Shown here: positions 28,901-50,632 of the stretch, one piece after another
How positions within the stretch are numbered: position 1 is the first letter of the stretch
How the letters are laid out: every line of letters starts with the position of its first letter
Assembly: GCA_014871385.1 (NCBI GenBank)
Contig: CM026431.1
Location: 1,558,464 to 1,622,463, forward strand
Origin: Ceratodon purpureus
Taxonomy: Eukaryota; Streptophyta; Bryopsida; Pseudoditrichales; Ditrichaceae
DNA: 64,000 nucleotides
Direction of reading: 5' to 3'
Translations under genes and position numbers: made by a program
Notes under the pieces: model-generated
Databases searched by the model: none
The model's input: the letters and a program-made list of their open reading frames with translations, nothing else
Told to the model about the DNA's origin: nothing

Positions 28901-29206
28901 ACAACCAACCTCCGGCTAACGTCTTACACAACTGCGCTCCAGATCCTCGAGGTCTCGCTACAATATCGTCCACCACCCAGCAGTGATATATTGGTTTATA
29001 TGGTCATCTCATGAGCAAGAAGTAGGCTGCATTATTCCTTCCGGATTTCGGCCGCACCTAAGAGGAATATCATTCCACCCGCAACATCAGCCCACATCAC
29101 CCGAACGTCACTTCTGAGCTTTTCATGGCGTGGACATCTTTTCAGGCTTCTGGAGAGTGACAGTCTAATCCGTATGAACGAAAGTGCCGAAAAGAGAGTT
29201 CTCCCC

Positions 29207-29215
29207 GTCGTAAAG
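29207..29215. repeat. Left 9-bp target site duplication of the MULE
   Basis: GTCGTAAAG lies directly outside the left terminal repeat and is repeated exactly, in direct orientation, at 50,624-50,632. A 9-bp duplication is the usual signature of Mutator-like transposition. Confidence 0.93.
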
Positions 29216-29530
29216 CCCTGACTATAATCCTCGCCCACGTCTTAATGGCGTTCGCTATTTCTGTTCCCTTTCGCGGCGGTCCCGCGAGACAGGGCCCACG
29301 GCGCGAGACCCTTCTTTCGCTCCAGAATTCTTTCCGTCGCTCCCCCCTCTCGCGAGCCGTGCCCGGGCTCGGGATGCCACGTCGGACCCCGTCTCGAAAC
29401 CCTCCCTGCCACGTCCGCATCCTCCACCTTGTCTCGTCTCGGAACACAGAAAGACGAGACACCCCATGCATGGGCTGTCTCGCGAGACAGCCTCATGGCA
29501 CCATGGCCCATGGGCATGCATGGAGATTTT
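29216..29530 (+). repeat. Left terminal inverted repeat of the MULE
   Basis: About 315 bp that match, inverted, 50,308-50,623 with only scattered differences. It contains a perfect 20-bp palindrome, GGCTGTCTCGCGAGACAGCC, at 29,473-29,492, made of two TGTCTC hexamers facing each other across GC. A matching palindrome lies at 50,347-50,366. The arm also contains several more CGAGAC sites. Confidence 0.93.
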
Positions 29531-29615
29531 CATCCATCCGAGACGGACAGAATTCGTCACGTCCTGTCGAATGACCTTCCACGTTTTAGGGTATGATGTC
29601 TCATTTTCGTGGGTG

Positions 29616-29831
29616 TCACTTCTGCTCTCTCCTGTCACTTCTGCTTTCAGTCTGTCTCGTCGGAGCTGTTTCAGGTGTTGAGGTGATGATGGAGTTCTGT
29701 GGGTGGAGATCATGCGCCGTCTCTTGCAGCCTTTTCCTCGATTTTGATTTCTGAGGTTTACTAGGTGTGATGATGGCGTCTCCCCCCTGCTCTGTGTATA
29801 AATTGGCAGCCTCCTGGAAAACCGGACTCAT
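29616..29831 (-). pseudogene. Short ORF with TATA box in the left arm of the MULE
   Basis: A minus-strand frame of 71 codons starts MSPVFQEAANLYTEQGG and is rich in Lys, Arg, Ser and Thr afterwards. A TATA-like CATATAAACC lies about 80 bp upstream of the ATG, at about 29,911-29,920 on the same strand. This looks like the promoter and first exon of a gene whose remainder has been lost between here and the left end. The product is not recognised. Confidence 0.35.
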
Positions 29832-30109
29832 TTTATGCCATTGTCTGAGGAGAGCTGCGAGAGTTGTCTCGTGGGGTGGCGAGAGTGTTCCCTCGAGAGG
29901 AGGTGCGAGGGTTTATATGCGCGCGTTGTCGAAGTTTGCTAATTTCTCTGCCAATTTCTCTCCGTTTCCTTCTCCGCTGTCTCGCGCCATTGTTAGGTGT
30001 ATTGCGCTTAGTGTTTGTGAGGTGGAGAGTGCTGGGGGGTAGCTTGTATGCGTGCGGCGAGCGGCGAGCAGAGATTTGGAGAGCGGAGAGCAGAAAATGA
30101 GGCCCTAAA

Positions 30110-30930
30110 TCTAAAAACAGTAAAGTTCTTACTAAAAATAAAAACTATTATTAGATTATTAGACTATTCCTATTTATAGTAATTAATGATGACCCTATAA
30201 CCGTGGACTGAATTACAGTTTTTTAATAATTTTTACCAAGTTCCACTGCCTTTTTTTTTAATATTCTTAAAGTCGAAACGACCGATAAACCGTACTTTTT
30301 GAATCCTATGTCATTTTCTTTACATTACTACATTTCTACCAATCTCATCTACATGGCATTCATCATTTTTTATTGATTGTTAATCATTTGAATTAATTTC
30401 CCTTCCCATCTTCTTCGATTCTATCCATCTTCTCAATTCCAATTCTATCTATCTATTATATCCCTCCATTATATGTTTTATTGCGTTGATGTTAATTGCC
30501 ATTTCATCTTCTTATTTTGCCATTCATTTGCTTCTTATATATTCTTTGTTCATTTTCAATTTAATATTTTTCTCCCCTTTCAATTTTTATTTTTGAATCA
30601 TGTTTTCCCTTAATGTACACACACCCTCTTTTAGATGCATTTATTGAGTTTAATTTATTTTTTTGATTTATTTATTTATTTTTTAAATTTTTAAACGAAC
30701 TTTCTCTAGTTCCCCGTCAATTTTTGGTTTAGGGTATGTTGTTTACAAATCAATGAAAACAGTGTCAACAAACCCAGTCACGCCATTCAGTAGGATGAAA
30801 TTCGTTTATCATTATATGGTCCAGGTTTCAAGGGCGCCAAGCATCTAGCTCTTGGATATTTAAGTAGTGGCAATAGAAGGTCACTTCCTCTTTGTTCATT
30901 CTCTTCTTGAAGCAAGTCCAAGGAAGAGCG
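30110..30930. other. AT-rich stretch
   Basis: T-rich DNA with no gene that I can support, at the left side of the nested segment. Confidence 0.5.
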
Positions 30931-30939
30931 AGTTTCGGA

Positions 30940-31270
30940 TATGGAAGATGTCAAGGATACTACTCTCTCACTTGGTGATGTCGTTGGCCCATTTCATCCA
31001 TATGTGGAGGTCGAGGGGGAAGACGGGGCGAATGGGTGCAATGAAGGGCATTCTGAATATGATGACGTGGATGTAGAATTAGACGTGATAGGAGACTTAT
31101 GGCTGTAGAAGAGTCACGTAGTTTCGTAGTACTTCAGGAGGAGCCGGTTGTGCCTTTGCCACCTCATGCATACTCCAAGGTCGGGAAGATTCCACCAAGG
31201 ACTTATTCTAGGGAAGCATAACGTAGAAAGAGTGAAGCTTGTCCATTGTTGAAACGTCCCCGCCTACGAT
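30940..31270 (+). pseudogene. Degraded small ORF pair
   Basis: A frame starting MEDVKDTTLSLGDVVGPFHP runs through an acidic stretch to a stop near 31,107. A second frame, overlapping its end, continues with VLQEEPVVPLPPHAYSKVG and PPRTYSREA, a stop, then RRKSEACPLLKRPRLR. The pieces look like parts of one acidic protein with a basic tail, now interrupted. No family is recognised. Confidence 0.25.
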
Positions 31271-31299
31271 AAATGCCAAGTAAGGAATGAGCAATGAAC

Positions 31300-34200
31300 G
31301 TCAATGTAGCTTGTCCTGTAGTGCAGCAGGAGGTTGGTAATTATACTGAAAATGATAGTGGGATAACTAAACGCATTAATTTCAAAGAATAAAATGGGTT
31401 TTGAAATGTATTGATGGAATTAGAACAGTCCAACTGTTTTAGGGTATAAAGAACAAAGGCCACTTGTCCAACTGAATGCTATTGTTACTCAATGTAATAA
31501 ATGTGAATGACAAAACCTTTATATTGAAATAGTCAATACGAGATTTGCATTGCTGACTCACTAAAAGGAAAAAGTCAATCACCAATGACTAAGTATCCCC
31601 ATTAACCACCGTCCACTATGCGAATGCGTGTCTAAAAAAGTACGCTCCGGCCTCCTCTTTTTTGGCCAAGGGGTGAGTCAAGATTCCACTCTCTAGGACT
31701 TGATTGACCTCGTTGAAACTAAAGGTAGGCGCATGGATAAAAAGCTTGGTCTCGGATCCCGGTTGCAGACCTTCAAAAGGATGTAATACAAGTGTTTAGA
31801 GTACGAAAACTGAATCCTGCCTCGAAACTTAGTCATTGTCTTCTTGAATGCAGGGCAAGTGCAACCAGGTTAAGAGCTGATGTGGTATTGTGTGATGGTA
31901 GGAGCAATGCCGAAATCCAGCCTGATGATGCAACTATGGCCCGGGTGAGGTATCATAGTGACAGAACGGAAGCAAGCTTTGACTCGGATTCGGAGGAGCC
32001 CATGCAGTGTCAGCGATGGTTTTGGAGTTGAATTTGGAGTTGAATTTGGAGTTGAATTCGATGCGAATTCGCTCCGGCACGGGCTCTAAGGCTAGTGGCC
32101 ACGGGTAGTCCCCCACTGATTCCTGCCCCGGCCCCGGCTTCACTCTCTCTTGCTTGCCATTGCCCATGATTGCTCTTACACCTCTTCCGCTCAGGTTGCG
32201 CCTATTACTGCAAGGAACTATGGAATTGGAGGTTGCAGGTTGGGGTTGTAAGACTGCTTGACGGATCCAAGGCGCCCCTAGAGTAACTATAGAGGGTACG
32301 AGAGTGGGAGAAGGAGAAGGTGGTGAGTGGAAAAGTAGCTGCCATAGATGGCTGGTTTTGCAGCGAAAAGTTTCCGCGAGGGGAACCATATCATATCATT
32401 GTAGGAGCACCAGGAGCAATGGGAGGAAAGCCTAGGTTAATGATATGCCAAGTGGAGCCAGCGTAATTGCCCACCAAGATAAGTTTCGTCGAAAATGTCT
32501 TCAAATGCCTCATGCTAGTGCCTCGGATATGTATCAGCGTAGATGAATTTAAAACGATTCGATCATGGCCAACACTTATCGAGTCTGCTTTTCGGCCAGT
32601 ATTTGTTGATCACTTCATCTTGACTATCCCTGTGTATGAAGCAGTAGAACGACATTGAGTTGGATTCTACTAAATTTTAGGATTCTGGAGGTGATTTTAC
32701 TCCGAAGCTTGTTTCTCTTCTTCATGATTTCAAACTTGTTTCTAGATAACTGCCATTCACATGAAACGGCAAGATGTGTGTGCGGAAGGATTTAGCCGGG
32801 ACATGCGTAGCAGATGCACAGAAGCATCTTCATTTCCTTTCCGTGGGTGAACGAGAATTTTCCTGTTTAGCGCTTGAGAATTGCATCATTCATGCTGGGA
32901 ATTGAGATGCCGAACTGCTGTTGTCCAAATAATAATCTGAATCCAGGCTTGCAATGAGATATCTCAATGCACTGCAGATATCTTTAAGATAATAGCACTT
33001 TTGAAGTGAAACCAAAACCCTTCTTTGACATTCTAGAATGTGAATTACAGTACCCTCAAACAAAGAAGAGCCGACAAGCAGACCCACTGACTGGCAACGT
33101 ACTCCGTCGATAGAAACTATACAACAAGTACGGTTGTTGACTATTGCAATGAAGTGTAATGAACATCTGTTTGTAAAGAACTGAATGTTTACCTGACTTT
33201 TTATCTTCCAGTCTAATGGAACAATTTTCACCTTTCGACACAACCTTCAAGACGCCCTCCTACGCCCACTTGTTAATGTCCCATTCATCCGCCCTTCAAT
33301 CAACACAGATCATCAAGGTGACTACACTTCTAGAAACAGACTAATCCACCAAAAGATCCCTGCTGTAAATTTGAAGCAGTGCACCTTTCTGGTCGACCAT
33401 TTACTTGTAAGAAGCTGCAGTCTTTCTTGGAGGTATCTGTGACAAACAAAATAAACATGCTACTCCTTTAGCCGCGTATTACAAACAGGAACAAAACCAT
33501 ACTAAGAGGCTCAATAATGTACTTTGAAATCCGGCGAGTCGAATCCTAAAAGTTCCAATGTAGAATGTAAAATTGACAAAACATGATGCATGACTTAGTT
33601 GAAACCACGACAATCGCAATGTCTTGTTGATTTCAAACTAAGTAATCCAAAAAACAACACTAATATACACTCAACATCCTTAAAAACAAAGTGATTTCCA
33701 ACAACACCTGCCATAAACCACAGATGCAATTCACAGTAAACCCTATAAACACATCCAACTACTAGAAACACACCAACTCCAAAAACTACACATAACACAA
33801 AAGAGATTGTTGAAAGCAAAACCTAAACCCTCTCACTTCACGAAACTCTAAAACCAGTCCACCGAAGCAAGAAAACGACTATCTGGTGACAAACTCCAAT
33901 ACCGTCTTCTAAAACCTTAACCAGTGGGCTCAAAAAAAAACCACAACAATCACACACAGCCTAATTCAACCTAAGTACTGAATTTCAAATTCCAGAGGTC
34001 CCGCACCATATACACATAGCATTCCTTCACTTGGAAGAGCACCAACTCCGCATTGCTCTCCTGATCATCAACCGTGACGCTCTCCATCCCTGCCGCCATA
34101 TTTTCGAAATCGCGATTTCCCAATCATGCAACAATCCACTCACCAATATACCCCAATATACCCCGATGTGCCCAGATCGACAAACATAATGCTCTCAGAC

Positions 34201-34470
34201 CAATCAATCTGCTTGCTCTACTTGGCTCACAATTCCTCACTCGTCATCGTCATCCTTAGCATTCTTAGCCGGCTCGCCCTCCTCTCCGGATGCGTGTATC
34301 CTGAAGCTTCGCCTCGAGCTGACTACTTGCAATGATCTGTAGACCCCAGTGGAGCCTCACTTAGGCTAGATAGAACGCAATATGATCACGAATTGGTCGA
34401 TAGAAAGGAATTCATAACAGAAGATAGTCTGGTTAGAATAGTACAATATTTGCCATGACATTGTGACGTG
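31300..34470. other. Region without a supported gene
   Basis: Scattered frames of up to 151 codons (for example minus 31,934-32,389, which includes a short Glu-Phe-Asn-Ser-Lys repeat from a 12-bp tandem at about 32,025-32,060) carry no motif. I do not annotate them as genes. Confidence 0.4.
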
Positions 34471-34477
34471 GTGTTTT

Positions 34478-35460
34478 TACTCCTCTACGCAGCCTCTTAT
34501 GGGCAGCGCGAGAGGTCTCCAGGGGTACTACCGTTAACGGCAGTATCCTAAGGCTATATTTTTATGTCTTGAAGTTGAGGTTTTACTCTTCAACGCTGCC
34601 TCTCATCAATAGTGTGAGAGCTCTCCAAGGGTACTACCGCTGATGGCAGTACCCCGAAACTCCTATTTTTAATTTTTTTGAAGTTGAGGTTTTACTCTTG
34701 AGGCTGCTTTTTTAAATTTTTAGTTCTGTTTTAGATCTTCTTTGTTGCCTTTCTTCGGCATCGCGAGAGCTTTCTAGGGGTACTGCCGTTGACGGCAGTA
34801 CCCTAAGGCTGCTTTTATTTTTTTTGAAGTTGAGGTTTTACTCCTGTATGCTACCTTTCTTCGGCATCGCGAGAGCTCTCCACGGGTACTGCCGTTGACG
34901 GCAGTACCCTAAGGCTGCTTTTATTTTTTCTGAAGTTGAGGTTTTACTCCTCTATGCTGCCTTTCTTCGGCATCGCAAGAGCTCTCCAGGGGTACTGCCG
35001 TTGACGGCAGTACCCTAAGGCTGCTTTTATTTTTTCTGAAGTTGAGGTTTTACTCCTCTATGCTGCCTTTCTTCGGCATCGCAAGAGCTCTCCAGGGGTA
35101 CTGCCGTTGACGGCAGTACCCTAAGGCTGCTTTTATTTTTTCTGAAGTTGAGGTTTTACTCCTCTATGCTGCCTTTCTTCGACATCGCAAGAGCTCTCCA
35201 CGGGTACTGCCGTTGACGGCAGTACCCTAAGGCTGCTTTTATTTTTTCTGAAGTTGAGGTTTTACTCCTCTATGCTGCCTTTCTTCGGCATCGCAAGAGC
35301 TCTCCACGGGTACTGCCGTTGACGGCAGTACCCTAAAGCTGCTTTTATTTTTCCTGAAGTTGAGGTTTTACTCCTCTATGCTGCCTTTCTTCGGCATTGC
35401 AAGAGCTCTCCAGGGGTACTGCTGTTGACGGCAGTACCCTAAGGCTGCTTTTATTTTTTT
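34478..35460 (+). repeat. Satellite array of 106-bp units with a 26-bp palindrome
   Basis: Seven copies fall exactly 106 bp apart (palindromes start at 34,781, 34,887, 34,993, 35,099, 35,205, 35,311 and 35,417). Two more diverged copies, also 106 bp apart, lie upstream (34,526 and 34,632). Each unit carries GAAGTTGAGGTTTTACTC, TTCTTCGGCATCGC and a palindrome with perfect 12-bp arms GGGTACTGCCGT and ACGGCAGTACCC around TG. The central copies are nearly identical. Confidence 0.95.
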
Positions 35461-35589
35461 GGTCTTTGAATTTAACCCCTTAAAACAGCAGAGGATATTT
35501 CTAGAGACGTGCCATTGACAACACAACCTCCAGAGCAAATTTATTTCAACAGATCATAAAATGACCAAAAGAAGTCTCAAAAAAGAAGT

Positions 35590-35850
35590 GTCGTTAACGG
35601 CACTTCTTTTTAGGCCTTTATCAAGAGTTGAGAAATTATCAAGTAAACCTTCAATTGGATAGTTCAAGTACTTCAAATGGCAGTAAAAAAGTACTGCCGT
35701 TAACGGCACTACCTTTGAAGGTCATCAAAAAATTAATTTTGAGTCTGTAATTGATTTATAAGGGCTATTTTTAGGAGTTTGTCGGTATTTTGTGCATCTC
35801 AGAGATGCTTTTGGGATACTGCCGTTAACGGCACATCCTTTTTCATGCCT
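35590..35850. repeat. Dispersed CCGTTAACGG palindromes between the two arrays
   Basis: Three isolated sites (near 35,590, 35,695 and 35,820) contain the palindromic core CCGTTAACGG or close variants. They form a bridge between the 106-bp and 181-bp arrays. Confidence 0.8.
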
Positions 35851-35959
35851 TATGGATATTTTTGAAGCTCAAGTTGTCCTATATTTTGATTTAGTCCCAA
35901 GTCACTTCAGCACCACCGTTTTTCCTAAGATATTCTCTTAAAAGTAGTGATGATGCTTT

Positions 35960-36560
35960 GCTGTTGACAAGGCAGTCCAAGGTAAGGAATTTGAGCACTT
36001 TTTAGACACTTTGGGAGGTCATAAAAGTAGTGCCGTTAACGGCACTTCCTTTTGACCCTCCCTTCTTATATAATTCTCCTCCCAAAACCGCTCCATGTCT
36101 AGTTTTTGCATCCTGCAGAATGGTACTTTGTTGTTGGTTTTCCGTTGACAAGGCCGTCCAAGGTAAGGAATTTGAGCACTTTTTAGACACCTTGGGAGGT
36201 CATAAAAGTAGTGCCGTTAACGGCACTCCCTTTTGACCCTCCCTTCTTATATAATTTTCCTCCCAAAACCGCTCCATGTCTAGTTTTTGCATCCTGCAGA
36301 ATGGTACTTTGCTGTTGGTTTTCCGTTGACAAGGCCGTCCAAGGTAAGGAATTTGAGCACTTTTTAGACACCTTGGGAGGTCATAAAAGTAGTGCCGTTG
36401 ACGACACTCCCTTTTGACCCTGCCTTCATATATATTTTGCTTTCAAAACCGCTCCATGTCTGGTGCATCCTGTAGAATGGTCTGTCTAACGAAACGAAGT
36501 TGATCACTTGCAAGACGTCTTGGGAGATCATAGAAGGAGTGCCATCATTGTGACATTCTT
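35960..36560 (+). repeat. Tandem array of 181-bp units with an 18-bp palindrome
   Basis: Units start near GTCCAAGGTAAGGAATTTGA. The palindrome AGTGCCGTTAACGGCACT or a derivative begins at 36,029, 36,210 and 36,391, exactly 181 bp apart, and a decayed fourth copy lies near 36,535. The first two units are almost identical, which indicates recent amplification. Its palindrome core GCCGTTAACGGC is a variant of the core in the 106-bp array. Confidence 0.93.
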
Positions 36561-36719
36561 TTCTTCCTCTTGTGATATATGTATTTTCGTGTGTAAGTTG
36601 TTGAATGTCTTGGTATTGCGTCGTGTGCCAAGCTCGGTTCCGTCTAGTGGATGACGTTGTGGTTGTTGGATGGAGAGTAGTGAATGAAGACTCTGGCCGG
36701 GCGTTCACGGAGATGATGA

Positions 36720-38170
36720 CTTTTAGGCCTTTACTTGTAAGATGTTCATGGTTTGAAATTTGGTTTAAGCTAAATTGTTAGGGGCATTCTTTCCAACTAT
36801 CGGTAACGGGAGTGGGTTTGACAAGGGAGAAGGAGCTGGATTTTCTCAACTTAGGGATGGGCAAGTGGTTAGGATCGAGAGGGACTTTGCTTGCCCAATT
36901 GCTTAATTTTGAGGAGCTCCTATCTCCCACTACCAAAAATTGCAGCGGATTCAGGAAGAGATAGGGAGGTGTATTTCATAAATAGTAAATTGAATTCATT
37001 TGTAATTGAATGGCTGGTCACTTTTGGAGAGATAAATGAGTTTTTACTTTATAAATGCCATTTATTACTCTGATTCTTCTTTTATATTTGACCCTAATTC
37101 ATTACAATTTCCGATTACTCATTGTGCTGCACATATCTATAGTGGATTTCACCTTTGAAAATATGAAGAATCAGGTGTTTGAGATTCATGTTATTACCTG
37201 GATGTTTTTTTTATAATTTTTATTTGCGTAGATGCTTCACGATCTTTTGGACACAGTCCCTAGAAATTTTCAATGCCTCTCCCTATCCAATTTCACTTGA
37301 ATGCGCTGAAAAGAAATACATGTATGGAGTGTTGAGATTGGAATACAGTTTTTCTGAAAATCTTAGTCCCAATACTCGAGCCTTACTTGGTTCTCCGCTT
37401 TGCCAAAGTATGAAAATGGAAATGTTTAAAAACAATCTATTCTGTGAATTTTCCTACAACACTCGGAATAGGAATTGCGTGGAATCTTTTATTGTTGAAC
37501 CACTGTGCATTTATGAGAATCCACGAGCGCAGTGCAAGCGAAACAAGTTGGCAAGACACTCAGAAGACTATTAAAGGGTGATTTAGCTTCACCCTTAAAA
37601 AGCTAGTTTACTGTCCAGATCTAAAGAGAAACCCACGAAATTTTTATACCCACCTAGCTAGTTCTACTTAACACCATTCTGCTCCTTTATTGCACCAGAT
37701 TTCTAAATCTCCTGCCCCTTTCTACTGACATTAAAGCAACAACCCAACAAACCCACATACATTTCCTATACCCTAACATCAATGTATACACTCAATCTAC
37801 TCAAAAGAGTCTTTGTTTTCTCATTAATCTCTACCTCATACAATCAGTCCTGCCCTGTACAGTCCTCTCCTGCCCTCATAACTACTCCTAACTTCTACAA
37901 CCCCAATTCCAACCTCCATAGTCGCACAAACTCCAAGGGGAGAGAGAGAGAGAGTGAGAGCCGCCAAGGTCTCACTCCTTACTACCCCCCCCCCCCCCCC
38001 CCCCCGCAACCCTAGCCGCCACCCTCCATCTGTCCATTTTTCATCCAAGTCAATTTTTCATCCGACTGTCAAAACTTCATCCAAAACGCAATAACTAAGA
38101 AATCCGCAGTAACTAACTGTTTTACTGCTCCTGGCAATTTAATGTTCCTGCTCCTGTTTTACTGCTCCTA
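36720..38170. other. AT-rich region, no supported gene
   Basis: Frames such as 37,179-37,574 on the plus strand have no recognisable motif. A poly-C run of about 20 bases lies at 37,984-38,005 and a short GA repeat just before it. Confidence 0.45.
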
Positions 38171-38189
38171 GGTAAAAGGCAAAAAACCC

Positions 38190-38880
38190 CTTTAACAAAG
38201 ACGACTGTCCATTATGTGATGAATGGCCGCACACTGAGGAACCTCAGTGTCGTTGGAAAATTCAGTCGGGTGGAGTCTATGTGTCTCAGTTCAGTCCTCC
38301 AAGACGTTGCAAGCACTTTCTTAAAAAACGTGAGTTCACAATGAATCCATACACATGGCCATTGGTCGAGAGACTTGGCGATTACATGGTTACAATGCTT
38401 AATGACCTTGACCATGAATTGATGCTAGTTTACGGACCGGTAAATGGGGACAAGACTGTCAGAACACTTCCATCCTGCATTCAGAGACCTTGTGCAAATG
38501 AACGTACCACAGGAGTTATCTTGAGAAGGCATTCACATCCTCATTATAGTATAGAATGGAAATGCAAGTTCATTTCTGTAGCAACAAAGAAAATCTGCAA
38601 AGATGTATTCATTTGGATACCACCTGATGATCCAACACGCATGACGTGTATTGATTGCGCTTGGAAAGCAAATGACACTGGTATTTATCTAGATACCAGA
38701 GGGTGTAACCAAGATAGACCAATATGGGTAAAACAATATGATTGGTCCAAAATTCGCGGATCAACTATGGAAGTGGAGGAAGCAAGAGCACCCATGGAAG
38801 TAGACACTGCTGGTTCAACAGTGGAGTCAGAGATTGAAAATCCAAACAAACGTCTAAAACTTGACCACACTGAATTGTGA
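38190..38880 (+). CDS. Uncharacterised protein with Cys-rich N-terminus
   Basis: The open frame begins before the first ATG (38,341) with NKDDCPLCDEWPHTEEPQC, a Cys-x-x-Cys pattern suggesting a metal-binding segment supplied by an upstream exon. It continues through PYTWPLVERLGDYMVTMLND, a second Cys/His region (RPCANERTTGVILRRHSHPH, then WKCKF and CIDCAWKAN), the motif RPIWVKQYDW, and an acidic tail ending in a basic PNKRLKL that could be a nuclear signal. I do not recognise the family. The frame is intact over about 230 codons, so it may be expressed. The true start is unresolved. Confidence 0.45.
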
Positions 38881-39073
38881 CTATAGTGAGCTGTAAAAGG
38901 TTTTCTAGAATATGCGTTGAAGGATAATCTAACCATTCATAGATATCGATAGATACAAAGTGCAACTCATGTAATTAGCCCGAATGCACATATAATTGAA
39001 AGACTCATAATATACATACATCACTACTCATATATAACTGTATTGCATTCATGATTTCTTAATCACACCAATC

Positions 39074-39598
39074 TCATCTATGCTTAGGAGAGACCCAAAT
39101 ACCATCACTAGGAATCAATTTCTCTCCTCGTTCCACCCATATTGGTTGATTTCTGTTGTCCATGAGGATCGACCTCAACTGATCTAACTCAATGCAACGA
39201 AGTTCACCAAATGACGCTATTTCTAACCTGTCATTGCGAATCGGATGTGCTAGAATCCAAGAACTCTTAAAAATATTCCAGTTCACGTTGAAGCGAAACG
39301 CTTCAAAGTCTTTCTTGGGAGTCCACTGCCCCTCTGAGTATGAATCGTAATTCCATTTTGCAAGTCGGAGGCAAGCATATTCAGTACTGTTGTCAATCTC
39401 ACTTCTCCAGAGCTTCGACACAGGACGAGCATTCTCCACATCTTCAAACGTGATCACTACTGGAGGACTACAACTTTGAATTGTACTAACACACACTGAT
39501 TCCGAGAGATCAGGTCCATCTGCCATCCGCCAAAGCAGATCCTGAAGAATTGTTTCACAAGCAACTACTTCAAAGGTATTGCTCATTCTCTCAAACAA
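39074..39598 (-). CDS. Uncharacterised ORF, possibly F-box-adjacent family
   Basis: An intact frame of 174 codons. The segment VSKLWRSEIDNSTEYACLRL followed by AKWNYDSYSEGQW resembles the region just after the F-box in some plant proteins, but the F-box itself is not visible. The end NQPIWVERGEKLIPSDGIWV shares the PIWV block with the neighbouring plus-strand ORF at 38,190-38,880. The two face each other tail to tail about 190 bp apart, so they may be diverged members of one family. Function unknown. Confidence 0.4.
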   Translation of the reverse strand: MFERMSNTFEVVACETILQDLLWRMADGPDLSESVCVSTIQSCSPPVVITFEDVENARPVSKLWRSEIDNSTEYACLRLAKWNYDSYSEGQWTPKKDFEAFRFNVNWNIFKSSWILAHPIRNDRLEIASFGELRCIELDQLRSILMDNRNQPIWVERGEKLIPSDGIWVSPKHR

Positions 39599-40255
39599 TG
39601 CCTATGAATTGCAAGATTCTGTGTATCGATTGATGACTCTAAACAAGTAGAGTCTAGACCAAAAACCTCTATGGTTTATATGGAATTGTGAGACATAAAA
39701 AGCTAGAATAGATCTTATCTATAGCCGATGGAATTATCAGTGAGGAGAAGCAATTTTGGAAAGGATAAATTTTTGAATAAGTAATACAATTATTGTACAC
39801 GATTTTTTAGAAATCTCAAGAGGATTTCAATGGCATGCTTTATAAAGTGGCAGAAGCAACGAAGCTCAACTTATTTTTAAATCTATCTTTAAAATTATTT
39901 TCTAAAGTATCAAGTGCCAATTATTCAGTGTTTTTATCGTATCCTAGATCATAGCAGGAAGATGGATTCCTATTGTCAATCGGCAAGGTATATGAAACAG
40001 AAAAAGATGTAGGATTTAAAACAACTTTAGAGGTGCATACTCAGGGCAATACGTCATCATGACGTCAGCCCTAATTTTACTTACTCCCTTTTAACTGTAG
40101 GTTAAATATGGGATGGGAGAATTTTTCCACGGAATTACACACAATTACTATAAATTATTCTAAAAATATAACTCTAAATTTAGATACTACCCACGGTTAT
40201 AGGGTATTTTTTTAATCAAATGGGTGTTCAAAGGTCAAATCTCTGCTCTCGAATC

Positions 40256-40320
40256 TTCGCTCGCCGCTCTCCGCTCGCCGCTCTCCGCTCGCCGCTCTCC
40301 GCTCGCCGCTCGCCGCACGC
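40256..40320. repeat. Minisatellite of 14-bp units GCTCGCCGCTCTCC
   Basis: About four tandem copies form the right inner edge of the nested segment. The last half-unit is part of the 20-bp inverted end. Confidence 0.85.
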
Positions 40321-41049
40321 ATGCTAACTTTCCCCGAGAGTGCTGTGCGTGAGGCGCTTTCATGGGCGGAGAGTGTTGTGATAGAGTCTGAGAGTGCTGT
40401 GAGAAGTGAGGAGTCGGAGTCTGTTGCTGGAGCCGCGATCCAGGAGTTTGTGCGATTTGCTCGGAGGAGGAGTGCAGAGGCGATTTCGCTGAGACAATCG
40501 AGGTATGTATACGATCATCATCTTCTATGTGTTTGTTTTTATGGTGTTCCGGAGAGACGATAGCGATTTTCTTGTCGGAGTTTGTCACAGAGATTAGTTT
40601 TAGGGTTTAGTAGTCATACGTCACGACATTCTGGGGTTTAGGGTTTAGGATAGACATGTCTCGTGGAATAGTGTTCAGGTGTATCTTGTCTGCGGTCGTT
40701 GTGGGTGGCCTCGCTGCTATTGTCGAAATGAAATGAGGACGACGATGTCGCCCCCGTTACAGGAGTGTCTCGCGTTGGAATTGGGAGGGAGTTCCTGAGT
40801 ATACCAATTTTGTGCATAGAATCTTAATTTCTGTCCCGATTCGTCGTTCATGTTTCGCCGAGACAACGATCCGTCGTAGAGGCTCCTTCCTGTCGTCCAC
40901 AGTTCCTGCCGAATTTTATGTGCACGGTTTTTGCTTCGCAGCTGTCTCGCAGTCTCGCCCCTGTGTCTGTGTCTCGGAAGGCCTTATAAACTTCGCATCC
41001 AGGTTACTAACCTCCGCCCCTGTTTGTTTTAGGTTGAAGTTAGCGAGAC
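40321..41049 (+). promoter_or_regulatory. 5' region of the Ulp1-like gene
   Basis: It contains a TATA-like CTTATAAAC about 65 bp upstream of the ATG at 41,050 and two telo-box-like TTTAGGGTTTAG stretches near 40,602-40,645. Six TGTCTCG/CGAGACA sites also occur. A short frame at 40,321-40,563 ends at a good donor (CGAG|GTATGT) and may be a non-essential leader exon. The assignment as promoter is by position only. Confidence 0.45.
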
Positions 41050-44000
41050 ATGGCTCCCGAGTACAGGAGGAACCTCCAGATCACGGACGACGGCGTCACG
41101 GAGGTCCACGAAAGCGACAAGAAGTTGTTTACGGAACACTACACATGGGAGGAGTGGAAAAGTTTGCTCCTGGAGTGTCATAGCGCGCCGGTGATGTTAG
41201 GACGTCGATTGTTCTGCTGCAAGCACAAATGCCGTGGCAAGAATGGGGAGCCCATGTGTGCTCAGAAGGCGCGTCTGAATACTCATAGGTGGCACGGGTG
41301 CCCCCTAAATGTCGACGCCAACGGTAACGTCATCCCAGAAAAGATGTACCCGAACCTGCTTGAGAAGAACGTTACCATTGACAAGCTGCAAGCGGGTGCC
41401 TCGCCCCAGAAGTTGGTGAGGGACTACGTGAACGAGACACAGGCTATGTCGCGGCGAGGGGAGCCGGTTAAATTCCAACAAGGCGTCTCTGCGATTCGTG
41501 GTCCGAGTGGTAGATCGCCGAAGAAGCAGACGAAGAAACCCATGAAGGCCGAGACAAAAATTGTCCCTGATAGGTTGGCTGTGAGGACTTTGGATATGGT
41601 GCTCAGCAGTTCAGATTCCGAGGCAGAGGCAGACAGTGACTTTGAGGCCTCGGACTCGCCCGTGGTGGAGCGAAGACCCTACAGTAGGCCCCGTTCATCG
41701 CCAATCCCGAGACGGCACCGACGCCTGCTGTTATCCCTATCATCCTTTCACCGCCCCGGCGAGACACATCTGCAGGCGAAGAGGACGCCACGGGAGCTGT
41801 ACCTGATACATTTGTCGTTGTTCCTCGGGCGGGACTCCCTCCTCGACAGCGAGACAAGAAAGGACGAGACATTGAAGTGAGGGCTTACAAGCCGGAGAAG
41901 GAACCCGAGGACAGGGAGTTTAACTCTCGGAAAAACAAACGCAAGACAACCCCGGCACAGAAGGTCCCAGCGGCAAGGAGCGAGACAAACACGACGGCAG
42001 CGAAGCGACGGAAACCATCGGACGAGAAACCGCCATCCCCAATCCGGCACGAGACAGCCGGATACGTCTCGGATACGTCCCGGATACGACTCTGATATGC
42101 CCGTCTCCACTCCCACTGTCCACACAGAGGATACTGGAGCGGTGGCTATGGTGGTCGACGAGGCCCCGATGGAGGTTCCCCTGAGCCCAATGTCCGCCTT
42201 AATGCGAGACAAGGAGAAGGTTGTGGAGGAGGCTCAAGAGGCAGCGGAGTCCCTGTTCACACTAGATCCAATTCGCGAGCCCGAGACACGCTTGGGACAC
42301 ACGGGCCTCACCATCCTAACGGATTACGGGCTTTTTGGGGAGGAGAGGGAGTTCCACACGTGGGACAGGGGAACTCTTCGGACCAGACTCGGGGAGTTCT
42401 TGAAGAAGGAGGGGCGCGAGACAATCATCTCGCTTACCTACTTCCGATTCCAGAAGTTGAATCGAAAGGTACGACATCTCCTCCCTGGAATTCTCAACTT
42501 CTTTATTTTATAATAACTTGTATTTGTCGTTAATATGTTGCAATATTTTAATTCTTTTTCGTCTATCTTTCATACTTGTCTCGCACTTCAATCTGTGCCT
42601 CAAGGTTGCTAACGGGGGAGGACTGCCGTACTCTCTGAATTGCAGAATTCTCTATACTCCGAGAGAGATAGCGGTCTAGCGGCAGATCTTTCTGAAGTGT
42701 TGGACACCGGGGAAATGTCCGAGACAGAGATGGACCGTCTCCCGAACGCCTCCATGGACTACTACGTCAATGTCCAAGACTGGAAGAAACACGAGGAGGC
42801 CGTAGATGCCCAGCGCCTTCATAACGCCAGATTGAAGGAGAAATTCATCGCGGACAGGGTTGCAGCGTGGGAGGAGTCCAAGGCTGGGGAGTTGGAGGAA
42901 GTGTCATGGGGTTGGAATCCCCTGTACCACATATGCGCGAAGAACCCCGCTGTCTCGGAGAGGCTACCTCCCATGCCCTGGAAGCACAACGGAACGGAGG
43001 CACGAGACGTGGTCAAGGCACTCGGTATGAGACGGACGCTGCCAGTCAGAGCAGGTCTGGAGGCAAAGATCGTTCGCGTTTTCCTCCTCGTCCACAATAT
43101 TCGGTACAAGTCAGTATAGTCTACTTGTTTATTTTTATTTTTTTGTCCTGAGGTACTTTATTGAATTCAACCTAATTTAAAATAAAAAAAAACCGTCACG
43201 GGCCCCTCATATTTTCCTCGTGCTCTGGTATAACAGCTCAGCGGACCCACTGCAAGGAGCACTGGACAAAAGTGTCCAGGAGAAGTTGTCTTCGCCTGGA
43301 GCTCTAGACACAGCGAGGTGTCTCGTTCAGGCCGCTGGGAGTACACTTTTCGCTGCTGATCCAGTCGCCGAGACGGAGACGTCGGACGCCATTACAGCAG
43401 CATGCGTGTCCCTCCACAGCGGTGTCTCGGATGCCCTGCAGGCGTGGCTCCTGACAGTCCAGGCTCGGGCACTGGAGGACTTTGCATCTTCCGAGACGGA
43501 ATCCTTCATGACGGTGTGGCAGTTGACGGCGCCCGTCTCGGAAGAGGTATTCCCAGAGTGCTTGAAGATTTTGCGGCGAGCATTAAGTCGACGGGAGGAC
43601 CTAGATCTCCGTTGGATCCCTCTTGCGGATGGTAAGTTCATATCCGACACAGAGGCCATGTTCTGATGTCTTGTAGTAAGAATGTCTCGGAAACAGTTCA
43701 GTCGTTCCGAAGCTAACGGCGTGGACCCTGTTTGCAGAGCCGGCCTGGGCCTCTGGTTTGCGCAGTGCGTTGTCAGTGCGCACTTTCTTGAATGGTGTCG
43801 CTCAAGACCGGTGGTCCGCTGCCGAGACAGCTGTTGACGGGGTTTCGCGAGACAGGTTGGTGTACGGCCACTTGAACGTTCATGGTCACCAGATACCTGT
43901 CGACGAACCTGCACAAGAGTCGGAAGGGACCGAGACAGCGAGCCCTTCATCCCCATATCATAACAAAATGAATGAGGTTGTTGACCTGGCCTCCTTGGAT

Positions 44001-45817
44001 TCGCCTCGCCGGTACGAGAGCCCGCGAAAGGAGACTGCCTCATTCGAGACAGTGGCAGCCGCGAAACCCAGAGGTGAGTGTCCCGGAACATGGACCCAAG
44101 AATTGCGAGACGGGTTCAGTTCCCTGCCATTGGGCGATGGCATTCCCTCTACATCCCAGATGGACTGTTTCGGATTCTCGCAATTACTTTCTTGCACACC
44201 AACTCATCATACAGTGTCCAGAGGAACATTAATTAAAGGGGGTTGCAATATTGTGTCTTTACTAGACGCAGTGGCGGCGTCCGAGACAGTGGTCGAGGAG
44301 GACAAGGAGCCCGAGTCAGACGAGGGACAGTCCTCTGGAATTGGGTCACGAGAGGAAGGACTCAAGATTTGGGACCTCGACTTTGGCGCACCAATACCGC
44401 CGAGTAAATTGAAACCGGGGAGCCACTAGATTTTTAAATTCATGGACCCTGCCACGCCTGTTCCGAACACATTGGAGCCCCCGAAGGATTTCAAGACGGA
44501 GCTTGTCTCGGAGGGAGTACAGATGGATTGGAAGGCAGTGCTTGGCGTATTGATGATTCCATTCCACGTTGGCTGCTTCAAGTAAGTTCTTAAGTTCATA
44601 AATGGCATGTTTTATTACTCATGGTATGTTTAGGCTCGTTGTGTCCATGTTTTTTATTCTTGAAAATGTTTCGGGGTGTCCCGAGATCATGTTCCTCTAG
44701 CGCTGTCCAGGTTCTACCCTGTCTCGGATCTAACATGATCACTGTCTAGTATTTCAGGCAAGGGCATGTGGACGAGACGGAGTACGGGGATTACATCATC
44801 TACTTTGGTAACGACCCACGGATTGCCGTGAAGATCCGTGTCCTAGTCCAAGAGTGGGAGTGCGTACTCAGACCACAGGCGTGCATGATTGGGCCATTCG
44901 TGGACCTCCTCCTTCGGCACTTGGTTCTGAGATTGCCGGACCACGTCGCGAGACAGTATGTGGTGGCAGAATCCAACGTCAATACTGTCTTGGCTGCGCA
45001 CATCCTGGAGTGCAACGGGGACTGGGAATGGCTGGGGAGTTTCGGAATCCGGTGGCTCTCAGGTTGCAATGGCCAGGAGAACACGTTGGTGATCCCTTAT
45101 TGCGATAAGGATCACTGGACCCTGTTTGTTGTGGAGCAAGACACGACATATCACCTTGGATCGCTCCTCCACATACACGACACGGAGGCTCGAGACAACT
45201 TCGTCACGTTGGTGCACATCGCGTGGGCGAGCTCCAGGGGAATTGTTCCGGGATCGCAGGACTGGTGGAAGGTAGTGTCTCGCGGATGTGTCTCGCTCAA
45301 GGCTCCGAACCAGAAGGAGTCATGGGAGTGCGGATACGCGATGAGTTTCCAGTTTTGGCAGTACATGGTCACTCGTGGATATGCTTGTCGTTTCCCGAAG
45401 CCTGCGGAGAAAATGAAGAAGAAGTGGTGGTTGAAATGGACTGGGCAGCAAATGCAGTTGTGGTTCATGGAGCAGCTGTACATCGAGACAGCCCGTGCGG
45501 ACGACAGATTACCAAGACCGAGGATCTGCGGGACTAGTTTGAATGACTTGCCTAACCTGATGGAGGTGGATATCGTTGTCCCGGACTACGTCACACTTAA
45601 AGGCGGGGTCCAAGTGTTCGGTATTTTGCCTGCGATGTCTCGGACCGGGTACACAGTGGATGCGTTCCACATCCGTGAACCACGAGCACCACGTTCTGAG
45701 GAGGAGGAAGACACAAAGACGAGGCTCGGAAGCGCCACCAAGTCCAGGAAGTCTAAGCGTGAGAAATTTGAGAAGATGATGCACTCTCCTTCAGGCTCGG
45801 CGAGACGACGGCTCTAG
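41050..45817 (+). pseudogene. MULE-borne gene with C-terminal Ulp1-like cysteine protease domain, interrupted
   Basis: Exons by splice phase are 41050-42468, 42646-43109, 43237-43631, 43738-44073, 44272-44581 and 44758-45817; the internal joins from 42,468 on keep frame. The N-terminus has a Cys/His-rich segment (RLFCCKHKCRGKNGEPMCAQ and HRWHGC). The last exon has the C48 peptidase signature: His in KDHWTLFVVE, Asp in LHIHDTEA, then Gln and Cys in PNQKESWECGYAM. It ends in a basic tail. Ulp1-type enzymes remove SUMO or related modifiers; KI-MULEs carry such domains. Breaks: the frame shifts near 41,700 and near 42,085, and a TAG lies at 44,427-44,429. Small unseen introns could explain the first two. 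A restart at the ATG of MDPATP (44,442) would still give an intact protease half. Confidence 0.8.
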
Positions 45818-46270
45818 ACTGCGTTTTTCTTTTGGGGCGAGACAGGCAGGAGACTTGTACAGGACTGCTCAGTACATAGTACCAGTTTTGGGGATGGGAG
45901 CGAGACGTAGAGTTGTAGAGATGTAGTGCATAGTTGAAGGACACAATGACAGTGTATAGATGAATGGTATAGTCCGAGACAGTCCAAGGAAGGGGAGTGA
46001 CTGTCTCGCCTCTCGTTTGTAGTGGACTCCCTGTGAGTAGTTGAGAGCTCAGTGTCTCGTATGTGGGATGCTTGGCTCCCAGGGGTCGGAGAGGAAAGAA
46101 GAAATTTTTTTGTACAAAATTTTCCACGGGAAACCGTGTGACGTATAATTAGAAAACGGAAGATTCTTTTACATACGATACTTGTCTACATTGCGCATAA
46201 AAGAGTATCGATAATTCCTAAACTTCTATCCGAGACAGAACTTCAAAAAATTCGCTACAACACAATCTAG
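45818..46270. other. Convergent intergenic space inside the MULE
   Basis: The 3' ends of the Ulp1-like gene (plus) and of the gene at 46,273-46,734 (minus) face each other here. The stretch is rich in TGTCTCG/CGAGACA sites and contains no gene. Confidence 0.6.
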
Positions 46271-46272
46271 AG

Positions 46273-46734
46273 CTACAGTTTACCGAATGCTGATGGTCCT
46301 AGCATCCTCCTTGACCTAGTGGGGTTCCAAGGGGTGAGACACATGCCCACGTACGTAAGGGACTCGTAGTCGACCCCGTCTCGTCTCGAGACAGTTGGTG
46401 TTCGGGACTGCCCGCCAAGGTATTGTCTCGGTTTACGGTACACGTCCACCTGATTCCGTTTCGCACAGCTCATTCTCCGAGACGATAATGCTATATCATA
46501 TGATGCCTCCAAAAACAATTGCTCCAGTACCTCTAAAGCGTCGGCCTCCAATTCCTGGAGATCACAGCAGTCTGTGGCACCCGAGACAGGCCCCTCTGGA
46601 TGAACTCCCGGGACCGGGTCTTCCCTCCCATTGAAGAAGTTAACGTTCATGGACTCCATTCTGCGAACCCAAATTGAACGCCAAACGCGAACTACGAAAA
46701 CTGGTACCCCGTGATTATGAATCCCACTCAACAC
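46273..46734 (-). CDS. Uncharacterised ORF downstream of the MULE transposase
   Basis: An open frame of 153 codons on the transposase strand. An acidic helical stretch (LQELEADALEVLEQLFLEAS) is followed by a basic C-terminal part. It could be a last exon of the transposase transcript or a small separate gene. No homology recognised. Confidence 0.35.
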   Translation of the reverse strand: MLSGIHNHGVPVFVVRVWRSIWVRRMESMNVNFFNGREDPVPGVHPEGPVSGATDCCDLQELEADALEVLEQLFLEASYDIALSSRRMSCAKRNQVDVYRKPRQYLGGQSRTPTVSRRDGVDYESLTYVGMCLTPWNPTRSRRMLGPSAFGKL

Positions 46735-46845
46735 CAGCAGAAATAAAAGAAAGTACGAGTCGTGGTGGGTATACTTATAGGTAGAGATCCCGCTGTCCCG
46801 ATCCGAGACACATCGAATATAGAAATCCGAGACAGGGACGTGGGG

Positions 46846-49800
46846 TCACTCCTGCGTGGATCTGGGCGGACGTCCGACGCGTCCCCCGTCGAGGAAATCC
46901 CTGTTCCGTTTCAGCGAGTTGGGCTTGTTCGGGTCATTCCTCTCAAATCTTGGGGCGTCTCGCTCCGTTGGATGAAGGAGACCGGCTAGAATCCTCGTTT
47001 CCATGGCAGCGTGTCTCGTATTCATCTCTGCCAATTCCGCCGCCAGGTGCTTCTGAATGACGTAGTGTCTCGCAGCTCGTTCCGTGATTTCTCTTCCCGT
47101 TTGGTCTATGATGCGCTTCATTCTTGCCACCTCGTCTTCTTGTCTCGGTGGAGGGTCGACCGTGGGCACTTCCTCTGTCTCGCTGATGGCATTCCAGTCT
47201 TCGGGGACATTCTGCGACGATCCGGTTTCAGTCTCGCTTGGAATTCCCGGTCCCGGGGGATTTAGGAGAGCCGAGACACCGCCTAGCTTGGTACCGTACA
47301 GTGTCCCGCAGACCTTCACAATCGTCCCGTCGGCAAGGTCAGGCCTCATTACCCGAAGAACCTTCAGCTGATGTTTGCAAAGATTTCCTTTCTGGGCCCA
47401 TACACATTCGCAAACAGCCCACTCGGTATCGGGATTGTACACGGCGTATCTAATGTGGGCTCGCTTGGACGACGTGACTATGGCGGGGTCACCGGGTCGA
47501 GACGGAAGCGAGACAGAGGAGTCCGGGATCTTGTTCGCCGATATAATGGAGTTTCTAACGATCTGCTCTGCCTTCTTGTTTGTTATGAAGCCATTCTCCT
47601 TCATGTACTGGTTGTAGTCGTATTTCGTTACGACGTCGTTTGTGAGCTCGTGAATGAGCCAATCGAGACGCCTTCCATCCAACCGACTCTTCTCGGCCTT
47701 CAGAGTGGCCTTTGTGTGTCCATGATATGACTCAATCCCTGCGTTCGTGTCTTGACCAGCATGTGGTATGTGCCTGTTCCCTGTCACCCACATTTCGGGC
47801 TTTATCATCATACTTTCAATGTACGCCCAGAATGCAGCAGCGCCGGACACCAATGTCTTCAGTCTCGCGAACCTAGCCTTCACGTAGTCCAAGACAGACA
47901 ACCTCGAATCGGGAGACTCCTCGATGTACATGAGCGCTCCCATTTACCGCAGCGCCCACGCTCTGGTGATTATTCCTTTAATTTTGGCACAGGCGTTCTT
48001 TTGCCAGGCCCGCCTCACATGCCAGAGGCATAAGAATACTTTAATCTTGGGCTATACCAACCTATGAAACGCACGAGACATATCAGGGGGACAGAAATGG
48101 AGGTGCAGCATGCGTGATGGGGAATCACGAGACACTGTGTGGAACGGTATGTCACGAGACAGCTTGCGAGTCGGCAAATCACGAGACAGTACGCAGACAG
48201 AGATATCAGAATACGTACATTATGGCGTTAATCTCAGCTAATGCATCATCGACAATGAATGCACTCGGTAGCCACTCTGGCATCTTCGAAACTAGCTTCT
48301 GCTTGATTGCGGTGAGCCAGGGAGTGATGTCTTTCTCTTTTGCGGATTGCGCGATAATGAAAGCAACCGGGACTCCATTCCGCCACTTGTCGAACACCAT
48401 CAGAGTGTACAGGGGATACTGCAAGAGCGAGACAGATGTCAATGTCTCGGAAAACGAAATGAGTACTGAACGAGACAAGGTCGAAATATATGGGCTGAAC
48501 CTTCCAATGATTTGTTCCGAACGTAGCGTCCATCGAGACAATACTTTCGTGGCCGTGCTGTAGCATCATCTTGAACTGGAACTCGTTTTGGATGCCGATG
48601 ACAAACGGCAAATTCGCAGATGTGGGAGTTCCCGAGACAATGCCTTTCTTAACGAGACGGTAGAAAAAAACATCGTCCGGGTTAGCCTCCACCCACATCT
48701 TCACGGATTCGGCGTCGTTGTCGTCTCTCTGATACTCTGTTTTCCTCAATTCCTTGGCGATGTTTCGGACATCCCACTCCCGTAGAAAGTGACATCGTTC
48801 AGGCGGAACACCCTCGGCTACGAGATGCATCACCTCGGCACGGTGGGTAGAAAGAATCTTGTTACTGGAAACGCCAGACCGGAGGCTCGACAGTACCCAA
48901 TTCCGGAGCTCCGTCGGGATTTGTTTTTCGAAACGACCACGCTCGCCGGGTAGGACGGCGCCGTGGACCACTAGCGATGCAGGATTTTCGTGTCTCGGGT
49001 TATAATATACAATCTCGACCACGTCTCGGAGATAGTAGAGCTGCTTCACCTGGAATCTGCACACGCATCCTCTCTTGATGCTCATTCCACTCGCAGCAGC
49101 GCCAATTCTGGGCCTCCCCTTCCCACGCCCGTTGGGAATCAACTTGCCCTTGACGTTGTATTTCGGTTTCTTCGTCTCCATCTCGGGAGTAATTGTGAGG
49201 ACCTTGTCGGACAAGTCCTTCGGCCCGTACTGGCACTCGTACCTGTGCCGAAAATACAATACCAAGTTAGCGAGCCGTTTTCGACTGTCTCGGAACCCGT
49301 TTCGCGAATGCTGTCTCGTTATCGAAGAACATCGAGACGCGGACATCACGTATATATAGATAGAAGAACATACAAAACGTTACCCAGAAGTATTCGGTTT
49401 CGGAAATGAACTAACCAGAAAGTATGAAGGCCAGTATTGTGTCTCGGCTCGTGACCAGGCGGCTTCCCCTTGGGTCGTTTCAAGAATCTTGTCTGGACAT
49501 CGGACCTTCGTTTGCTTTCGCCTTCGACGAACTCCTCCACTCTATCCCACGGAATGTAAGCAACATGATACCTTTTCTCCGAGACATCACCCTCGGAGCG
49601 CCCGATTCCAAGCCCGGACTCCGGGACGTTCCGTCTACAGTATTCGACAACATCAGGATACGAATTCGGTGGGCGGAAGTCCCACTTGATGTCTTTGAAC
49701 GTGAAGGGACCGCGAGGTGGGAACTGTACCGCGTCTCGGTATCCCTGCAGAATGTGACCGTTCTTCTACATGTAGATTGTCTCCCACGGTCCAATCCAGG

Positions 49801-49920
49801 AGGTGTCTACCTCCACCTTCACGTCGACAGAATGGGAAGCCACGGTCGCTCCATTGTCTCGCGGAAGATCGTCCTTCAGGATTCATCTCGCGGCGTCCTC
49901 TTGCAGGGTCTCCATCCCGA
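46846..49920 (-). pseudogene. Mutator-like (MULE) transposase with DDE core and SWIM zinc finger, interrupted
   Basis: Four exons are visible. The first (about 49,920-49,416) encodes the N-terminal part with PRGPFTFKDIKWDFRPP. The second (49,242-48,501) carries the DNA-binding region with CxC and RGCVCRF and the first catalytic Asp in VSMDATFGTNHWK. The third (48,418-48,215) has MVFDKWRNGVPVAF and the second Asp in FIVDDALAE. The fourth (48,051-46,846) has FLCLWHVRRAW, the catalytic Glu in NAGIESYHGHTK and the SWIM finger CECVWAQKGNLCKH, then a Glu/Arg-rich helix. Joins 1-2, 2-3 and 3-4 are in phase. Two in-frame stops break it: TAG at 49,766-49,768 in exon 1 and TAA at 47,944-47,946 after TRAWALR. 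All catalytic residues remain, so the decay is young or stop suppression occurs. Confidence 0.88.
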
Positions 49921-50307
49921 CCGCACCTCTCGGGATATCACGCGTCACGCATCACAACAGATTGCGATTGTCCCGCAAACAGCTGCGGTACAAGCCGATG
50001 CCACTCCTGAAGACACCTTCGGTCTCGCGTTCACGGGTTCGGCATCGACACGGCCAAAGAGATGAGCGGTATCGGACGATGCATCGCGGGAACATGCAAG
50101 ACACAGGGAGGGCACCGAAACGGGTCCGCCGTAGACAGACACCGATGCCACTCGTCTGGGCCTGGCGAGACGGCGGGTAACCCTAGAATTTGAAATCGAT
50201 GGAGCACTTAGAGACAACAAACTCCCGCCTGGGAATCGCGAGCGGGAAACCGAGACGAGACTTATTCCACGTCTCAGGCCTACGAGAGGAAAGCCCCGGA
50301 AAGGTAG

Positions 50308-50623
50308 GAAACTCTCCATGCATGCCGATGGACCATGGTGCCATGAGGCTGTCTCGCGAGACAGCCCATGCATGGGGTGTCTCGTCTTTCTGTGTTCCGA
50401 GACGAGACAAGGTGGAGGATGCGGACGTGGCAGGGAGGGTTTCAAGACGGGGTCCGACGTGGCATCCCGAGCCCGCGCACGGTTCGCGAGAGGGGGGAGC
50501 GACGGAAAGGATTCTGGAGCGAAAGAAGGGTCTCGCGCCGTGGGCCCTGTCTCGCGGGACCGCCGCGGAAGGGAACAGAAATAGCGAACGCCATTAAGAC
50601 GTGGGCGAGGATTATAGTTAGGG
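50308..50623 (-). repeat. Right terminal inverted repeat of the MULE
   Basis: Inverted match of 29,216-29,530, with the same internal 20-bp TGTCTC palindrome at 50,347-50,366. The outer end is followed immediately by the 9-bp duplication. Confidence 0.93.
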
Positions 50624-50632
50624 GTCGTAAAG
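50624..50632. repeat. Right 9-bp target site duplication of the MULE
   Basis: GTCGTAAAG, identical to 29,207-29,215 and in the same orientation. Confidence 0.93.

Follow-up and report, generated by a model that had tools for sequence, protein, structure and literature searches.

To our knowledge, the way in which transposons evade silencing is understood mechanistically for few elements. In En/Spm, TnpA binds a 12-bp subterminal motif and has been linked to demethylation, and KAONASHI and other Mutator-like elements (MULEs) carry Ulp1-like genes. A functionally studied parallel is found in Arabidopsis, where VANDAL families carry family-specific motif arrays, mainly in non-coding DNA, that are read by VANC (Hosaka et al. 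2017, PMC5735166). Here we analyzed a window of 64,000 nucleotides from the moss Ceratodon purpureus (assembly GCA_014871385.1, contig CM026431.1, positions 1,558,464 to 1,622,463 of the forward strand; coordinates given without a contig name are those of the window), in which a MULE with terminal inverted repeats (TIRs) spans 29216-50623. The DNA of this element carries a short tag, GTCTCG and mostly TGTCTCG, about once per 100 bases. Because related transposons of the same genome carry different tags, the observations suggest that each family labels itself for a protein that it probably also encodes.

Apart from an unrelated segment of 10 kb nested inside it, the element has ~11.1 kb of its own DNA, which holds 112 GTCTCG/CGAGAC sites, 79 of them in the form TGTCTCG. 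An earlier note on this DNA, made from the letters alone, had counted roughly 100 such sites between 40.6 and 50.6 kb. The right part of the element (40338-50623) contains exactly 100, of which 71 are TGTCTCG/CGAGACA, so that the interval stands as far as it goes, but the feature starts already at 29.2 kb, where the left part (29216-30080) adds 12 GTCTCG/CGAGAC sites, 8 of them TGTCTCG, in 865 bp. The segment nested between the two (30081-40337, boundaries approximate) lies outside the motif system and is almost motif-free, as had been claimed: it has one GTCTCG/CGAGAC and no TGTCTCG. The two outer parts are taken as one element because they end in TIRs of 316 nt at 97% identity, found by repeat detection (left, 29216-29531, plus strand, beginning CCCTGACTATAATCC; right, 50308-50623, minus strand), and are flanked by a 9-bp target-site duplication, GTCGTAAAG, read directly and identical at 29207-29215 and 50624-50632. 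With this duplication, the long TIRs and a MULE transposase, the element is a TIR-MULE. When the right part was compared with 200 dinucleotide shuffles, a control that the earlier note had proposed for TGTCTCG, the 100 copies of the 6-mer stood against a mean of 9.68 (maximum 24) and the 71 copies of the 7-mer against a mean of 2.10 (maximum 6), an excess of ~10-fold and 34-fold, respectively. The excess is thus real, although the random expectation of five given in the earlier note was too low because the stretch has 53% GC.

The sites occupy both strands and are distributed over exons, introns and both terminal repeats, again in agreement with the first description. Within hand-drawn coding stretches we found 55 of the 112 sites (8.0 per kb), and the other 57 lie elsewhere (13.3 per kb). 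The coding sites use all reading frames and are not explained by the protein sequence: 300 synonymous-codon shuffles gave a mean of 13.95 sites and a maximum of 24. Because the 55 coding sites exceed these shuffles, we take the motif to have shaped codon choice in the exons of the element. A longer repeated unit does not account for the sites, since the bases flanking all 112 are close to random beyond a mild preference for C at -2 (50/112), C/T at -1 and G/C at +6. Their spread along the element is somewhat even, with a variance/mean of 0.59 in 500-bp bins and a coefficient of variation of the spacing of 0.81. Each TIR also contains the inverted pair with a two-base spacer that had been noticed before, TGTCTC-GC-GAGACA, which corresponds to two abutting CTGTCTCG half-sites forming the palindrome CTGTCTCGCGAGACAG (29475-29490 in the left TIR, 50349-50364 in the right). 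A longer unit, TGTCTCGNNCGAGACA, consisting of the palindrome plus two extra bases, was considered and dropped as irrelevant; it occurs in a single place in the genome.

The sharpness of the motif was examined in another copy of the family, the C5 copy. There TGTCTCG was observed 77 times against 4.1 expected and CGTCTCG 28 times against 3.8, while the remaining 20 single-base variants were each seen 0 to 6 times (expected 0.8-5.3). The motif is therefore sharp, about 7 bp long, and can be written [T/C]GTCTCG.

The motif is kept by selection. In six near-full copies of the family, aligned over columns present in at least four copies and with the C6a copy left untrimmed at its ends, 51 motif positions were variable against 72.5 expected from trinucleotide context (Poisson tail 0.005), and variants common to at least two copies numbered 12 against 22.8 (tail 0.010). 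Alignments of the ends, from which L008 (assigned to neither end) and L024 (57% identical to the other rows) were dropped, gave 4 motif changes against 12.5 expected among 17 left ends (tail 0.005). The copies are not fully independent in these comparisons, as L004/L005 and L012/L015 share flanking 9-mers and represent duplicated host DNA. The earlier note had also asked whether relatives retain the sites better than other bases, and they do so when intact sites are compared with control anagrams, that is, 6-mers with the same letters that likewise contain CG: 44/97 against 70/276 in L044, a relative at 80% DNA identity over 9056 aligned bases (p 2.5e-4), 41/50 against 122/185 in L040 (p 0.019) and 5/15 against 4/60 in L043 (p 0.013). 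Because L043 retains 51 GTCTCG sites in 10 kb, the density of the motif seems to be kept while the positions of the sites turn over.

The family is young: its TIR matches in the 362-Mb genome (40 scored of 57 candidates) have 95-100% identity; many of them are paired ends ~11.1 kb apart. Besides the window copy, both ends were fetched for 13 copies, and identical flanking 9-mers were found in 11 of them, the exceptions being C7:2722000, where they differ, and C5, where they are offset by one base. The long transposase exon is open in several copies. Among the 11 copies with identical 9-mers, two have ends 30 kb and 234 kb apart; in the latter, the two ends, one left and one right, are at C9:14171410 and 14405334 (L018, L003) and share their 9-bp duplication, which suggests that the locus was rearranged or took up a very large insertion. 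Two copies in opposite orientation on the 110-Mb contig C6 (58275560-58287104 and 58349845-58361395; L005, L029, L004, L028) are probably the product of a host DNA duplication, because both have the same target-site duplication.

The decisive observation comes from sister families. A transposase search of the same genome yielded 812 candidate loci, of which 150 were scored; seven spanning the identity range were fetched, followed by two more and two short extensions. GTCTCG is retained in the relatives at 79% and 51%. By contrast, L045, L046, L047 and L048 (39-45%) contain AGTGTCAC 9 to 29 times against 0.35-0.65 expected and GTCTCG only 2 to 7 times. L049 (35%) has 15 sites of CTG[T/G]CCTAA, 4 of them within a 15-bp tandem repeat, and also employs CTGGCCTAA; L052 (38%) has 11 sites of CTGTCCGG, 3 of them within a 15-bp tandem repeat, and in addition 6 of CTGTCTTGA; and L053 (35%) shows a weak CTGTCTTA (6). 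These sister motifs, most of which include TGTC, are sparser, with ~0.6 to 2.3 sites per kb; GTCTCG reaches ~10 per kb in the window family. When all motifs were counted in 11 element rows (two of them from the window family) and in six partly overlapping control pieces of the window, each was nearly confined to its own families, with 0 to 2 strays of each 8-/9-mer and of TGTCTCG elsewhere among the elements; the control pieces had 0 to 3 TGTCTCG each and altogether one AGTGTCAC and one CTGTCTTA. The best 8-mer exceeded the maximum of 10 order-2 resamples in all 11 element rows and in 2 of the 6 control pieces. The control-piece 8-mers were rejected as comparable dispersed motifs: that of the left-flank piece is a hexamer microsatellite (the window has (AACGGC)n at 12054-12148) and that of the nested segment belongs to palindromic tandem arrays. 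The use of different motifs by related families points to a probable co-evolution of motif and reader.

Two genes of the element could be considered as sources of such a reader. Gene A (41050-44582, plus strand, hand-drawn exons) encodes an N-terminal C2HC-like zinc finger and is the candidate motif reader; the window copy has frameshifts near 41690 and 42075, and in the C5 copy the first exon is open over 472 codons. The finger-like segment LFCCKHKCRGKNGEPMCAQKARLNTHRWHGCP (41209-41304, plus strand, found by pattern search) has equivalents in four sister families; of the 12 loci searched, five show the pattern, all from different families (the window family, L047/L051, L049, L052 and L053). 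The residues preceding the histidine of the finger vary between families. Open reading frames (ORFs) resembling gene A and convergent with the transposase were found in the window family, L043, L047, L049, L052 and L053, and Pfam C2H2-finger models matched the peptides of L051 (E 1.2e-4) and L052 (E 0.0085) below the cut-off. Downstream, at 44753-45814 on the plus strand, lies a stretch resembling an Ulp1-like cysteine protease, with candidate triad residues H (in HWTLF), D and C (in WECGYAM) that are invariant in four aligned sequences (the window copy and three relatives); its H and C regions align weakly to 6dg4 at E 0.028-0.068, and no Ulp1 Pfam match was obtained for the piece of the window copy, the A2 members or L047. 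Pfam did not detect DUF1985 in five gene A pieces, the Ulp1-like piece, four A2 members or the gene A ORFs of L047, L049 and L052, a search made with pieces of a broken, hand-drawn gene, so that a very diverged domain could escape it. The second gene, the MULE transposase (46849-49941, minus strand), has several exons, with in-frame stops in the window copy. The window copy matches PF10551 (MULE) at E 1.7e-4, below the curated cut-off, and its homologues P0001 and P0003, the latter an annotated Ceratodon purpureus protein with 40% identity, score above it. In L045, L046 and L048, all of the AGTGTCAC class, the transposase is present, but the 10 kb that were fetched yielded no finger. In L045 and L046 the transposase is followed by a small ORF; the two ORFs are alike and end in ...DNVSNYSAK and ...DHNISCYSRS.

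The earlier note had raised the possibility of a specific reader, either a host auxin response factor (ARF) or an element-encoded protein. A specific reader is supported by the sharp motif, its retention in relatives and the different motifs of sister families, and an element-encoded protein fits these observations far better than a host ARF. We therefore favour a protein of the element, the likeliest candidate being the gene A finger protein, as the reader, and, because of the analogy to VANC (PMC5735166), anti-silencing as its likeliest role; we give this combined reading a probability of about one half. The reader would coat the copies of its own family, with a site roughly every 100 bp, and copies so coated would stay free of DNA methylation or silent chromatin, allowing the transposase to be expressed and to reach the ends. 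The presence of the motif inside genes would extend the protection along the whole element body. If the Ulp1-like stretch belongs to the same protein, it may strip SUMO from silencing factors. Reader and motif would drift together in each family, which would permit escape from silencing without de-repressing other families. Such a scheme would share its principle with VANDAL/VANC, while its reader is, as far as tested, non-homologous.

Several observations weigh against this reading. The pattern search found no finger in 7 of the 12 loci (L043, L050, L044, L045, L046, L048 and L047, although L047 continues into the finger-bearing L051), so that finger and motif are linked through a single locus from each of four sister families and through the window family. 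The gene A pieces of the window family, L049 and the L053 peptide gave no Pfam finger match, and the structure model of the gene A N-terminus was poor (mean pLDDT 41, pTM 0.27). That the Ulp1-like stretch forms part of the finger protein is a guess from hand-drawn exons; the stretch was seen only in the window family, L043 and L047 (the last two by eye, the other loci not being searched systematically), its model was equally poor in confidence (pLDDT 41, pTM 0.47) and a Foldseek search gave nothing usable. As for the sister motifs, those of L049 and L052 each come from one locus and lie partly in 15-bp tandem repeats, and that of L053 is weak and not its top 8-mer, which is a different one, AAATAAGA. 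In the right ends of 12 copies the motif was not significantly conserved (6 changes against 9.2, tail 0.19), nor were end variants shared between copies informative (2 against 2.8 and 1 against 1.9). Finally, motif-encoded residues were no more conserved than others in P0018 (20/31 against 318/441) and P0019 (20/31 against 314/441), metagenomic relatives that were compared as proteins, a comparison that cannot tell whether the same motif is used there.

The transposase could itself be the reader through its own DNA-binding domain, as its N-terminal region is, by eye, Cys/His-rich; the motif would then titrate or concentrate the transposase, or spread a synaptic complex from the TIRs. The distribution of sites in the C5 copy agrees with this, as the end pieces have 12.5 and 17.8 sites per kb, compared with 12.6 between genes and 8.4 and 9.7 in the gene spans, and so does the perfect motif palindrome in both TIRs. 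In addition, all sister loci were found via their transposase, whereas several of them yielded no gene A. A transposase, however, needs sites at the ends and not in exons 5 kb away, and codon selection throughout the element is hard to square with such a role. We regard this explanation as unlikely, though it is the main alternative for the reader. We rate similarly low a different role for the same reader, such as target immunity (new insertions would avoid coated copies), the exclusion of nucleosomes or the pairing of copies. These roles would suit the coverage of the whole element, coding DNA included, which sets it apart from the non-coding VANDAL arrays, and the somewhat even spread of the sites; on the other hand, the evenness is modest, and the functionally studied parallel, VANDAL, is a case of anti-silencing (PMC5735166).

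It is very improbable that the sites are read by a host ARF and render the element responsive to auxin. TGTCTC is a known ARF-bound element (PMC10690724) and, as described above, TGTC recurs in most sister motifs. However, the same source describes ARFs as binding TGTCNN with a preference for TGTCGG, and this highest-affinity site is depleted in the C5 copy (3 against 9.6 expected), while all other TGTCNN stay below 1.4 times the expected count. TGTCTC without the trailing G is not enriched there, so that the G is needed, and the first position tolerates C, as the frequent CGTCTCG shows; in L043 it has no preference for T at all (T16, G15, C13, A7), and the second motif of L049, CTGGCCTAA, also fits poorly with ARF binding. 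We rate this explanation low because one set of host ARFs cannot give different motifs to different families. Least probable of all is that no reader exists and the sites arose as a side effect of base composition, of tandem duplication, of gene conversion or of a mutational bias, for although a few do lie in short duplicates (e.g. near 42066), their near-random flanks, their excess over dinucleotide and codon shuffles and the different motifs of sister elements in the same genome speak against it, and their conservation in relatives largely refutes it.

Two further features of the window may be mentioned. Pieces of an alpha/beta hydrolase gene adjoin the insertion site (28170-28915, minus strand, Abhydrolase_1, E 1.3e-6). 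The nested segment has palindromic tandem arrays of its own, GTACTGCCGTYRACGGCAGTAC-like, with units of ~106 bp and 181 bp, and an ORF at 38176-38880 with a match below the cut-off to a plant self-incompatibility protein S1 (E 0.002).

Compared with known systems, the element resembles KAONASHI-type MULEs in having an Ulp1-like stretch beside the transposase. It resembles En/Spm in that an element-encoded protein would act on multiple short motifs of its own element and affect methylation; En/Spm differs in belonging to the CACTA superfamily and in having a motif that is known only near the ends. A further likeness is to the VANDAL families. The earlier note knew of no described MULE with such a motif load, but VANDALs do carry family-specific arrays read by VANC; what remains of that claim is that their arrays are mainly non-coding. 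In VANDAL21 and VANDAL6-8 with VANC21 and VANC6 (PMC5735166; Sasaki et al. 2023, PMC10398659), as in the moss, MULE families have many copies of a short motif that is rare in other families, related elements differ in their motif, and an accessory gene of the element lies beside the transposase. The moss motif, however, reaches a high density in exons as well (8 per kb), occurs on both strands without fixed orientation and is mostly non-tandem, whereas VANDAL motifs are described as mainly non-coding, uniformly oriented and often arranged as tandem repeats (PMC5735166). The moss TIRs exceed 300 bp, while those of VANDALs are given as absent or short and degenerate (PMC6446971), and the moss accessory gene has a C2HC-like finger and no detected DUF1985. 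Because two defining features of VANDAL/VANC, a DUF1985 VANC and a mainly non-coding tandem motif (here 55 of 112 sites are coding), were not found as far as tested, we do not file the moss system as a member, despite its family-specific dense motif and a similar working principle.

Titles and abstract openings of the open-licence literature on VANDAL/VANC motifs, moss MULE anti-silencing and bryophyte MULE zinc-finger motifs described no bryophyte system of this kind. We tentatively suggest, as a possibility short of an even chance, that moss TIR-MULEs evolved family-wide self-recognition independently of VANDAL/VANC, a fast-evolving zinc-finger (perhaps also Ulp1-like) protein co-evolving with an element-wide tag that has a roughly constant TGTC half-site and another half that varies. 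With their different motifs, the sister families would supply matched protein-DNA pairs in which recognition and co-evolution could be tested, and possibly sequence-addressed tools for epigenome editing in bryophytes. If the reading is true, the diverging MULE families of this one genome form a natural series that shows how the DNA specificity of a single finger changes and how a transposon escapes silencing without harm to the host. The moss would then provide, beside VANDAL/VANC, a second system with an apparently unrelated reader and with tags in exons, and sequence-specific self-marking would seem to be a recurring strategy of transposons.

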